DNA of 23,040 bases from Fusobacteriota bacterium (lineage in GTDB: Bacteria; Fusobacteriota; Fusobacteriia; JAPLKR01). Below are positions 5,862 through 19,265 of this stretch, piece by piece (the stretch's first letter is position 1; every line of letters begins with the position of its first letter). A program made the position numbers and the translations under genes. Below the pieces are notes generated by a model that had not been told where the DNA came from, did no database searches, and saw only the letters and a program-made list of their open reading frames with translations. The stretch lies in contig JAPLKR010000055.1 in NCBI GenBank assembly GCA_026387965.1, positions 1 to 23,040 on the forward strand, written 5' to 3'.

Positions 5862-6570
5862 TTATTTTACCGTCTTCAACTCCTCTTGAATAGATGCCAT
5901 AAACTCATCAAAACTCACTACAGTATTTGCTTGTGAGCCATGACGGCGTACAGTGAGTTTTTTTTCTTCCATTTCAGTTTTACCTAAGATGATTTGAATA
6001 GGTGTTTTACTCATGTTAGATTCTCTAATTTTCAAGCCCAATTTCTCGTTTCGAAGATCCGCCTTTACACGCAGTTCTTGAGACTCGAGATAAGCGATAA
6101 CTTCCTTAGCATACGGGTGTTGTTCTTCGGAAACTGTAGAGACATTGATTTGAACAGGGGCAAGCCAAAGGGGAAAAAGTCCCGCATAGTGCTCAATCAA
6201 AATACCTATAAAACGTTCAATGCTTCCATATACCACACGGTGAATCATGATTGGTCGGTGTTTTTCACCATCAGCGCCAATATAGTAAAGATCGAAGCGC
6301 TCAGGAAGGTTTAAGTCAAGCTGAATGGTTCCACACTGCCAAGTTCTTCCGATACAATCTTTAATGACAAAATCGATTTTTGGGCCATAAAAAGCCCCGT
6401 CGCCTTCGTTAATAGTGTACTTCAACCCCTTATTATCAAGAGCCGCTTTCAGACCTGCAGTAGCTTTTCCCCATATTTCATCACTACCAATGGCCTTTTC
6501 AGGTTTAGTAGATAGGAAAATACTGTATTCAAAACCAAATATTTGTGAGTAAAATTTATCGATAAGGTTC
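5862..6570 (-). pseudogene. thrS: Threonyl-tRNA synthetase, C-terminal part, out of frame with N-terminal part
   Basis: This is the C-terminal 235 or so residues of ThrS, from NLIDKFYSQ onward, in a different reading frame from the N-terminal part. It keeps class II catalytic elements (STKPEKAIGSDE, INEGDGAFYGPKIDF, WQCGTIQLDLNLPERFD), motif 3 with the third zinc ligand (IHRVVYGSIERF) and the complete anticodon-binding domain (LAPVQINVSTVSEEQ to the end). The open frame runs back to a TTG at 6623, but residues encoded between 6570 and 6623 are an out-of-frame reading of the N-terminal part, not ThrS. No ribosome binding site fits a separate start, so it is probably not translated. Confidence 0.85.
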
Positions 6571-7632
6571 TCCCATACGAATTGGAAGCTCTCTGTATGA
6601 GTGTAAGCCTTCTTTGTAAACAAGCATTCCTCCAGGGCAGTTCATAGGTTTGATGGCAAAATCCTCTTCATCGACTTTAGTTGTATACATGTTCTCTTTA
6701 TAGTTGAACCAGTGTCCTGAAGTCTCCCAAAGGGTTCTGTTCATGATGATAGGTGTTTGAACTTCGATATATCCTGCTTTTGTATGTTCTCTTCTCCAAA
6801 GGTCTAAAAGGGTATTTTTAATAATCATTCCATTGGGAAGAAAAATAGGGCAACCTGGTGCATACTCAGACATGGTAAAGATGTTGAGCTCTTTTCCAAG
6901 GCGACGATGGTCGCGTTTCTCTGCCTCTTCTAAAAATTTCAAGTGAGCGGCAAGATCTTTTTTACTTGCAAAGGCAAATCCGTAAATTCTTTGAAGCATT
7001 TTATTTTTAGAGTCACCTCTCCAGTATGCGCCGGCAACAGATTTTAGCTTAAAAGCACCTAAAAATTTTGTCGATGGAACATGAGGCCCTCGGCATAAAT
7101 CTGAAAAATCACCTTGACGATAAACAGATACCATATCATCAGAGATGCTTTCAATAAGCTCTAACTTATAGAGTTCTCCCTCTGCTTCAAATTCACTACG
7201 TGCTGTATCTTTTGAGACAACTTCTTTAGAAAAAGGCTTGTCTGCTGCAATAAGAGTGTTCATCTCCCCTGTGATTTTAAATAAATCCTCATCAGTAAAG
7301 GCAATAGGGGTGTCAAAATCATAGTAAAAACCATTATCTATAGCAGGTCCGATGGCAATTTTTGTATCAGGGAAGAGATTTCTTACTGCTTCAGCCATAA
7401 CGTGCGCTGTGGAGTGTCTTATAATTTCGTCTGCTTCAGGAGCGTGAATGGTAATGATTTCAACCTCTCCATTCTCCGTAACTGCGTCACGAATATCCTT
7501 TAACTGCCCGTTGAATTTATAGGCAATAGCACGTCCATTAAAGGTCTTAAGTTCACCTTCTAACTGCTCTAAAATAGAGAGAGAGTTGTCAAAAGCTATT
7601 ACTTTTTTGTTGTTGATAACATTGATTTCCAT
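6556..7632 (-). pseudogene. thrS: Threonyl-tRNA synthetase, N-terminal part, truncated by deletion/frameshift
   Basis: ThrS charges tRNA-Thr. This part encodes the TGS domain (about 1-60), the editing domain (HSTAHVMAEAV near residue 75; DLCRGPHVPSTK) and the start of the class II catalytic core (PIIMNRTLWETSGHW, then PMNCPGGM with the first zinc Cys). It then runs into a stop after RELPIRMGE plus four wrong residues. The family would continue with about 44 residues holding motif 2 (HRHE...GLFRVR) and FTQDDAHIF with the second zinc His. These are missing in both frames, so a simple single-base frameshift cannot explain it. The ATG is preceded by AAAGGAG. ThrS is essential, so either an intact copy exists elsewhere or the assembly is wrong here. 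Confidence 0.92.
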
Positions 7633-11166: not shown

Positions 11167-11871
11167 ATGAGTTATCCTCTTTTTAGAACAGAATTACTTT
11201 TAGGAAGTGAAAATTTAAGTAAAATTAAGGCGTCTAGAGTTATTGTTTTTGGTGTGGGTGGTGTGGGTGGATATGCTATTGAAGCCATTGCAAGATGTGG
11301 TGTTAGAAAACTCACGTTAGTGGACTTTGATACAGTGGATATTACGAATTTGAATCGCCAAATTATTGCGCTTACAGATACTGTTGGACGGTATAAAACA
11401 GAGGTAATGAAGGAGCGTATTTTAGCCATTTCACCAGAAATTGAGGTTGAAATTTTTTCAGAGATGCTTACGGCAGAAAATATTTCAAAATTTGATATAA
11501 AAAAATACGATATGGTGATTGATGCCATTGACATGTTTGATTCAAAAATGGCGCTGATAGAATATTCGAGCAAAATGGGAATTAAAATCATATCGGCTAT
11601 GGGAGCGGGCAATCGAATTCACCCTGAAAAATTAGAAATAACTGATATTTACAAAACATTCAATTGTCCACTAGCAAGAAAGGTGAGATTGGAGTGTAAA
11701 AAGAGACGTATTAAGAGGTTAGAAGTGGTTTTTTCAACTGAAAATCCGGTGGTAGAAAAGGCAAATCGCCAAGTGGGGATTCCAAGTATCTCATTTGTGC
11801 CAGCCGCAGCGGGTCTACTGATGGCATCACGGGTTATACAAAAAATTATTATGAAAGATATGAGTGTATGA
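11167..11871 (+). CDS. tcdA: tRNA threonylcarbamoyladenosine dehydratase TcdA (YgdL/CsdL type)
   Basis: This is an E1-like, ThiF/MoeB-superfamily ATP-binding protein of 234 residues. TcdA cyclises the t6A37 base of ANN-decoding tRNAs to ct6A. The sequence starts with the family opening FRTELLLG, followed by the nucleotide-binding loop GVGGVGGYAIEA (about 29-40), the acidic strand LVDFDTVDITNLNRQ (51-65), VIDAIDMFDSK, and the TcdA hallmarks SAMGAGN, DIYKTFNCPLARKVR and SFVPAAAGLLMAS. The ATG at 11167 is chosen because AAAGG sits eight bases upstream; an in-frame ATG at 11149 has no RBS. It is the first gene of the second operon and overlaps the next gene by four bases (ATGA). No csdA/csdE partner is in the window. 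Confidence 0.9.
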   Translation: MSYPLFRTELLLGSENLSKIKASRVIVFGVGGVGGYAIEAIARCGVRKLTLVDFDTVDITNLNRQIIALTDTVGRYKTEVMKERILAISPEIEVEIFSEMLTAENISKFDIKKYDMVIDAIDMFDSKMALIEYSSKMGIKIISAMGAGNRIHPEKLEITDIYKTFNCPLARKVRLECKKRRIKRLEVVFSTENPVVEKANRQVGIPSISFVPAAAGLLMASRVIQKIIMKDMSV

Positions 11872-12821
11872 GATTTAGAATAGTTTATATGTATCTCGTC
11901 ATTTTTATGGGAGTTATTTCGTCACATGCGTTAGCAAGTCAACCAGTTCAAAATTTTATTTTTATTGGTGGAGACGGTATAAACATTTCAAAATATCAAA
12001 AATATATTGATGATCCGAGTATTGTAGGGGTGCAAGTGTCATATAGTTGGAAACTTTTACAACCAGCAAAAGGAATATATAATTTTCAGCCGATACAATA
12101 TGATTTAGATTATTTAACTGCACATCATAAAAAATTATTTATCCAAATACAAGATAGATTTTTTATGCCAAATGCAAAAAATATCCCAGCTTATTTAATG
12201 AGCGATCCAATCTATGGTGGTGGAATTGTGCCTCAAATGGATAATTCAGGAGAAAATAAAGCTCAGGTAGAGGGCTGGGTGGCTATGCAATGGAATATGA
12301 ATGTTCGAGAGCAATATCAATCATTACTTCAAGCCTTGGCAAAAGAGTATGATGGAAAGATATATGGAATTAATTTACCAGAAACTGCCATCGATGTTGT
12401 AAATACCAAGCAAAATGGATTTTCAAATAGTGGCTATTTTCAAGCAGAAATAGATAATATGTTAGCGGCAAAAAGGTTTTTCAAAAAAAGTGTTGTTGTG
12501 CAATATGTTAATTTTTTCCCAGGCGAGTGGGATAATGACAAAGGGTATATGTCAACTCTTTTTAGTACAGCCATTGCAAATGGAGTAGGGCTTGGAGGAC
12601 CGGATGTGGTGCCGTATAAAAACGGTCAAATGCACAATAGTTACCCATTTTTTAATCGATATCACACAAAACTAGACGTAGTAGCGATGGCTATTCAACT
12701 TCCAGACTATACTTATATTAATCCAAACACGAAAAAACCGTTTACAAAAACAGAACTGATAGATTTTGCAACCCATTATTTAGGGGCAAATATTTTATTT
12801 TGGGAAGTCGATGGAGATTAA
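11868..12821 (+). CDS. Secreted glycoside-hydrolase-like TIM-barrel protein
   Basis: This protein of 317 residues has a clear signal peptide (hydrophobic 5-20, cleavage after ALA at about 23). The mature part resembles clan A glycoside hydrolases. VGVQVSYSWKLLQPAKGIYNF is typical of the second strand of such barrels (a 'W..LEP..G.Y.F' pattern). Glu172 in YGINLPETA and Glu313 in ILFWEVDGD sit where acid/base and nucleophile residues would be. No specific GH family can be named and the substrate is unknown. The location would be periplasm or cell surface. It is translationally coupled to tcdA (four-base overlap) although the two have no obvious common function. The chain ends only four residues after the second candidate catalytic Glu, which is early for a barrel, so C-terminal truncation is possible. 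Confidence 0.6.
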   Translation: MRFRIVYMYLVIFMGVISSHALASQPVQNFIFIGGDGINISKYQKYIDDPSIVGVQVSYSWKLLQPAKGIYNFQPIQYDLDYLTAHHKKLFIQIQDRFFMPNAKNIPAYLMSDPIYGGGIVPQMDNSGENKAQVEGWVAMQWNMNVREQYQSLLQALAKEYDGKIYGINLPETAIDVVNTKQNGFSNSGYFQAEIDNMLAAKRFFKKSVVVQYVNFFPGEWDNDKGYMSTLFSTAIANGVGLGGPDVVPYKNGQMHNSYPFFNRYHTKLDVVAMAIQLPDYTYINPNTKKPFTKTELIDFATHYLGANILFWEVDGD

Positions 12822-17479: not shown

Positions 17480-17962
17480 ATGGGATTTGATACTAAAGAA
17501 GCAATCGCAAAAAACTGGTTACCAAGATATACAGGAATGGAACTTAGTGAATTTGGAGAGTATATTTTACTTACTAACTTTCATCAATATCTCGATATGT
17601 TTTCAGAACGATTTGGTGTAGAAGTAAAAGGTAGAGGTAATCCGATGCAAGCTGCCACGAGCCAAAATGGCATTACCATGATAAATTTTGGCATGGGCTC
17701 AGCTAATGCGGCCACCATAATGGACCTTTTGGTGGCAATTCAACCTAAAGCGACTATTTTCTCGGTAGGCCATGTTAATAAAATTCCTAGAGGTGCATTG
17801 CTTCTTGTATCCGATGTTCCTATGATGGAAAATGGCATTAAAACGCGTGAATCAGATAAAAAAGTAAATAAAGAGTATGTGGATATGCACCTTCAAATAG
17901 GAATTGAAGCGATAACGGAGCTTAAAGTAAATAATGAGTTTATTAAGCACTATGTATATTGA
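17480..17962 (+). pseudogene. amn: AMP nucleosidase remnant with central catalytic region deleted in frame
   Basis: AMP nucleosidase splits AMP to adenine and ribose 5-phosphate. Both ends match the short (about 258-residue) form of the enzyme. The start NWLPRYTGMELSEFGEYILL runs to MINFGMGSANAATIMDLL, and the end runs from VNKIPRGALLLVSDVPM through GIKTRESDKKVN to the C terminus. At Ala91/Thr92 (17752/17753), about 95 residues are missing in frame: the family continues FLGKCGG..., then the substrate-binding centre and the catalytic MET motif (DMETAT). The remaining 160-residue frame is open but should be inactive. Strong RBS (AGGAGG) before the ATG. It is the last gene of the operon. It may be translated, but I treat it as a broken gene. 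Confidence 0.85.
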
Positions 17963-18154: not shown

Positions 18155-18163
18155 GAACATGTT

Positions 18164-18283
18164 ACTTCAGGGCAGGGTGAAATTCCCGATCGGCGGTAGA
18201 GTCCGCGAGCATTTTGCATGAACTGGTGAGTTAGAGAAACTAATCATTCCAGTACCGACAGTTAGAGTCTGGATGAAAGAAGT
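18164..18283 (+). promoter_or_regulatory. FMN (RFN) riboswitch
   Basis: All RFN landmarks are present in order: the closing stem ACTTC (18164-18168) / GAAGT (18279-18283), CAGGGCAGGGTGAAATTCCC, GATCGGCGGTAGAGTCCGCGAGC, the AACTGGTGAG...ATTCCAGTACCGAC arms, and AGTCTGGATGAAAG. It is followed by a terminator hairpin before the transporter gene, indicating repression by FMN through premature termination. Confidence 0.96.
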
Positions 18284-18315
18284 GTATAGCTTTGCTATGT
18301 CAATTTTTATCTTTT

Positions 18316-18356: not shown

Positions 18357-19265
18357 ATGGAAAAAAATCTATTTGGCAGTATTAGTATTATGATTTCAGC
18401 AGCCCTTTGGGGAGCTTCAGGAATTCTCTTTATTCCTCATCTATCTAATCTTTCGGCTTCATTTGCTTCACTGCTTCAAGGTATTCTTTCGCTACTTATT
18501 TTAACTGTTTTATTTTCAAACAAACTGCATAAGATTCTACGTGTAAGATGGAAAGATTTCTCGATTTTGCTTTTAATAGCTCTATTCGCGGGTTTTTTGG
18601 GAAGTGTTGCTATTGTTAAGGCACTTTTCTTGACTGGTTTTTCAGGACTTTCAATTGTTGTACTTCTTCAAAAATTGCAGCCTCTATTTGCTGTGCTTCT
18701 TGCTATGATTTTTTTGAAGGAGCGGCCCTCTAAAAAATATTTTATATGGTTTGCTATTGTTCTGATTTCTGGATATTTTTTGGCTTTTGGATGGCATATA
18801 CCGGAATTTAGCTTGAAAAATAAAATGCTTGTGGCTGATTCATTGTCTGTTTTTGCAGCCTTTTGCTTTGCGAGTAATACCGTGTTCGGAAGGTACCTTT
18901 CTCAAGAAATAGCCTTTGAAACCATTAGTTATTACCGCGCATTTTTGAGTACTATCATGATACTTGTATATTGTATGGTCTTACCCCATTCTTTTTTTTG
19001 GAGTGGCATAACCCTTACAAATATTAAGATATTACTACTGATCGTTTTTTTTGCAGGACCATTTACTCTACTACTTTATTACCACGCTTTAAAGTATGTG
19101 AAAGCATCTATTGCCACTCTGTGTGAACTTTCTATGCCTATTACGGCAGTGGTGTTAGATTATATAGTAAATCATGCCCACTATAGCTGTATACAATGGA
19201 CAAGTGCTATCATTATGGTCGTGGGATTATATTTTATTACACGAATTCAATTAAAAAGTCGATAG
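18357..19265 (+). CDS. impX: FMN-regulated riboflavin transporter, ImpX/RibN-like (EamA/DMT family)
   Basis: A 302-residue inner-membrane protein with about ten hydrophobic segments in two EamA repeats. The first opens with ISAALWGASGILFIP; the second begins near LSVFAAFCFASNTVFGRYLS. The signature VLLQKLQPLFAVLLAMIFLKERPSKK (end of the first repeat) and LCELSMPITAVVLDYIV (end of the second) are typical of drug/metabolite transporters. The substrate is inferred from the FMN riboswitch directly upstream. ImpX, a putative riboflavin transporter, was predicted on the same basis in Fusobacterium and Desulfitobacterium. The ATG follows AAGGAG at five bases. It is transcribed alone. Riboflavin biosynthesis genes are not in the window. 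Confidence 0.85.
   Translation: MEKNLFGSISIMISAALWGASGILFIPHLSNLSASFASLLQGILSLLILTVLFSNKLHKILRVRWKDFSILLLIALFAGFLGSVAIVKALFLTGFSGLSIVVLLQKLQPLFAVLLAMIFLKERPSKKYFIWFAIVLISGYFLAFGWHIPEFSLKNKMLVADSLSVFAAFCFASNTVFGRYLSQEIAFETISYYRAFLSTIMILVYCMVLPHSFFWSGITLTNIKILLLIVFFAGPFTLLLYYHALKYVKASIATLCELSMPITAVVLDYIVNHAHYSCIQWTSAIIMVVGLYFITRIQLKSR

Follow-up and report, generated by a model that had tools for sequence, protein, structure and literature searches.

The window analyzed here, 23,040 bp long, is a complete contig (C24) of a 1.79 Mb draft genome that comprises 141 contigs and has an estimated completeness of 95.5%. On its minus strand, the gene for threonyl-tRNA synthetase (thrS) is present as two parts in different reading frames. 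The N-terminal part is an open reading frame of 358 amino acids (6556..7632) with the N-terminal domains, the second additional domain, and the catalytic core from its start as far as CPGG...RELPIRMGE; it matches PF07973 in full, PF00587 at positions 1-39 only, and TIGR00418 at positions 1-288. The C-terminal part (5862..6569, also minus strand) matches positions 334-564 of TIGR00418 and holds the remaining catalytic core, from NLIDKFYSQ onward, and the anticodon-binding domain, with its stop at 5862.

The two parts meet at 6567..6570. The last matching codon on the N-terminal side is GAA at 6570-6568 (E355, in RMGE), and the first matching codon on the C-terminal side is AAC at 6569-6567. The N-terminal frame continues for three more residues (PYR) and ends at TAA (6558-6556). 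This is as described in an initial annotation of this DNA, in which the frame reaches RELPIRMGE, soon stops, and resumes at NLIDKFYSQ. The interval given there, 6556-6623, corresponds to the overlap of the two open reading frames, while the junction itself lies at 6567-6570. With scores against TIGR00418 of 327 and 283 bits for the two halves (cut-off, 383.65), a chance match is not an issue, and no single open frame covers the model above the cut-off. Both halves are otherwise undamaged, with 60-66% identity to relatives, and the sequence that might be shared at the junction amounts to only about 2-6 nt.

The nearest relatives that we could search share only the class with this genome, and among named matches, the best for the N-terminal part of thrS is from an uncultured Fusobacteriaceae genome (55% identity). 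The lineage forms a family of its own among the genomes compared. We rejected the idea that the contig is foreign to the genome: its tetranucleotide profile is ordinary (index 10 of 49 by distance to the median) and its GC content is 35.3%. Recoded stop codons were also rejected, as ordinary genes here end with TAA, TGA, and TAG alike.

Elsewhere in the window, an FMN riboswitch (18159-18288, plus strand) lies directly upstream of an EamA-family transporter gene (18357-19265), a position that makes riboflavin a possible substrate of the transporter. A putative exported protein of 317 amino acids (11868-12821, plus strand) has no match in NCBIfam or Pfam.

The stretch missing from thrS

The distance from E355 to the asparagine at which the match resumes is 44 residues in all 51 of the aligned ThrS proteins. 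With these 44 residues missing and a 2-nt overlap between the two frames, the gene is short by 134 bp, and tblastn with the best-matching relatives also gave a loss of 134 nt. The earlier estimate of an out-of-frame loss of around 130 bp, as opposed to a single-base error, thus holds, as does the claim that about 44 residues are absent, including motif 2 and a zinc-binding histidine. The consensus of the missing stretch is fGsvHRhEpSGaLhGlmRVRgFtQDDaHiFctedQikdEiiafn; it contains motif 2 (HRHE...RVR) and the zinc histidine of QDDAHIF, and the H, E, RVR, QDD, and H are nearly invariant across the 51 proteins. The class II motif 2 is absent from all three frames read across the junction, which bears out the statement that the intervening bases are not there in any frame, and the rest of the searchable genome yielded no thrS match that contains it. 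We take the zinc ligands of ThrS to be those of the E. coli enzyme, namely the Cys of CPGG, the His of QDDAH, and the His of MIHR. The first and the last are present and the middle one is gone. With motif 2 and the zinc histidine lost, a lone thrS in this state would indeed be lethal, as had been proposed.

Could the gene work as it stands? The two halves are well conserved and adjacent, which would suit a working two-piece ThrS, or a type of ThrS that naturally does without this stretch. We consider this hardly conceivable, as each of the 51 aligned proteins has the stretch, with its key residues nearly invariant; moreover, neither piece contains motif 2, and the active site would not be regained if they were joined. 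A natural subfamily lacking the region, an outcome that the initial annotation had raised against its own reading, was not found among the 51 aligned proteins.

A search of the genome itself with the TIGR00418 profile (141 contigs, 1.79 Mb) matched thrS at positions 1-288 and 334-564 only; the other hits were weak ones to proS and serS. The second full-length thrS that the initial annotation had suggested looking for was not present in the searchable genome. All 40 of the related genomes have an intact thrS above the cut-off.

Other broken genes in the draft

We surveyed the draft for other breaks with tblastn, covering 0.91 of its 1.79 Mb (part of it as N). The queries were proteins from 1.2 Mb of one near-complete relative, which belongs to another family, and from loci that carry thrS; together they gave 227 conserved places. 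As the survey reached about half of the draft and relied on so distant a reference, the count of breaks should be taken as a minimum. Some of the genes besides thrS were examined because they came up broken, and the breaks do not give a rate.

The survey identified three clean deletions that change the frame: in thrS (134 nt), in secY (137 nt when measured against this reference), and in lon (197-206 nt). The secY gene (L194 908-2045, contig C55) matches its profile at positions 1-230 and 282-412 only, in two frames, with an internal loss of about 137 bp; no other copy of secY was found in the genome, and the gene is complete in all 20 relatives examined. Similarly, lon (L185 16698-18795, contig C46) is in two frames with an internal loss of about 200 bp, and no other copy of lon was found in the genome. 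Other genes are broken in different ways. In serS, the match breaks off mid-contig at profile position 383 of 418 (the last 35 positions are lost); it reaches position 418 in 19 of 20 relatives and position 403 in the remaining one. In proS (L117 5783, contig C93), a single in-frame TAG sits between KAVVC and SEKGFVLV (KAVVC*SEKGFVLVMIRGD); the gene is otherwise full length, and the family profile finds it in two open frames. The adjoining GDPD-family gene (L117 6878-7984, contig C93) has one in-frame TAA at 7547.

A second deletion lies in the same contig as thrS. An AMP nucleosidase-like gene of 160 amino acids (17480..17962, plus strand) is missing 99 internal codons (297 bp), with the frame kept, at 17750-17761, where its matches to positions 6-94 and 190-258 of NF005500 meet on the same 12 nt, which code for ATIF.

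Several candidates were not counted. A break at locus L129 was not a deletion, as two neighboring genes there are fused in the reference. A fragment of EF-Tu with a TAA (contig C20) comes from a tuf copy cut off by the end of the contig, and an intact tuf is on C55. Most of the candidate truncations from the survey were low-identity matches to paralogues.

These breaks bear on whether the thrS deletion might be fixed and tolerated thanks to a further threonyl-tRNA synthetase gene in an unassembled or unsearched part of the genome. The draft is 95.5% complete and some contigs were read as N, and a copy could be missed in this way. We think this very unlikely, given that thrS is intact in all 40 relatives and that hidden copies would be needed for secY, serS, and proS as well.

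The origin of the thrS gap

We conclude that the 134 bp missing from thrS most likely reflect an error in the assembly or its consensus, in a short-read draft, and not a feature of the organism, whose own thrS is most likely single, ordinary, and full length. If the assembly is at fault, then other indispensable genes of the draft should be broken in similar ways, and several single-copy genes of this kind are: secY, serS, and proS, plus lon and AMP nucleosidase. Also, the broken gene is the only thrS found in a nearly complete genome, all 40 relatives have an intact one, and its two halves are otherwise undamaged. In real gene decay, dispensable genes go first, and translation and secretion stay intact. 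The breaks in this draft do not spare indispensable single-copy genes, which argues strongly for an assembly error over decay. The reading of a broken thrS as the state of the organism is thus unsupported, given the breaks in secY, serS, and proS, in lon, and in the AMP nucleosidase gene of this very contig, which point to an assembly or consensus error.

The contig ends offer some indications of how the draft was made. Exact overlaps of 141 bp occur between them, which suggests a short-read de Bruijn assembly with k=141, of the kind that MEGAHIT makes; 141 is the largest default k of MEGAHIT, and our tentative identification of the assembler relies on that. The draft is probably a metagenome assembly with 141 as its largest k. 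The right end of this contig (22858-23040) is a repeat; up to about 180 bp of it recur, with 87-99% identity, in several further contigs and there for the most part terminally.

Two pieces of a single gene may have been joined by the assembler, or through chimeric reads, with loss of the intervening sequence. Collapse in the de Bruijn graph is an unlikely route, as no long repeat is shared at the junctions, a point that weighs against an assembly error: at thrS, the 2-6 nt that may be shared are too short for k-mer collapse, and at AMP nucleosidase the profile matches overlap by 12 nt. Chimeric reads, read merging, or local gap assembly at low depth would be likelier routes, although these are guesses. 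Trimming of a 141-bp overlap twice was rejected, because a loss of 141 would preserve the frame and the observed loss is 134.

Alternatively, the thrS deletion could be real in some cells (or arise during DNA amplification) and be absent from others, with the assembler taking the shorter allele. The clean junction and undamaged flanks fit a very recent event, and the 12 nt shared by the ends of the AMP nucleosidase deletion are what slippage between short repeats would leave. This seems unlikely to us: in each of thrS, secY, lon, serS, and amn, a loss allele would need to have arisen independently and to outnumber the functional one, and cells without ThrS or SecY do not grow. We give little credence to a broader version, in which a lineage of Fusobacteria is gathering deletions of 100-300 bp even in thrS, secY, and serS and survives on intact alleles that a polyploid or mixed population retains. 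If true, this would be an unusual population with many lethal alleles.

Under the assembly error that we favor, the loss of an essential gene should not be read from a single draft, and a handful of other core genes from the same assembly suffices to expose the draft's unreliability at this scale.

Comparison with known systems

Cooley and Wright (2024) reported that the choice of assembler and the coverage cause spurious pseudogenes (PMC11017572). Of the four assemblers in their controlled comparison, MEGAHIT yielded the largest number of pseudogenes; low coverage also gave rise to spurious ones, and they advised that pseudogenes in public assemblies not be trusted without other evidence (PMC11017572). 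Our case resembles theirs in that core genes are broken by frame changes or internal stops in a draft with the k=141 signs of a MEGAHIT-type assembly. It differs in that they counted frameshifts and internal stops in isolate genomes, and their study included neither deletions of 100-300 bp nor metagenome assemblies.

As compared to ordinary threonyl-tRNA synthetases (thrS, TIGR00418; class II aminoacyl-tRNA synthetases), the gene described here has the same domain order, is single copy, and has both halves 60-66% identical to relatives from the same class. What sets it apart is the absence of 44 residues plus 2 nt, with the frame broken and with motif 2 and one zinc ligand gone.
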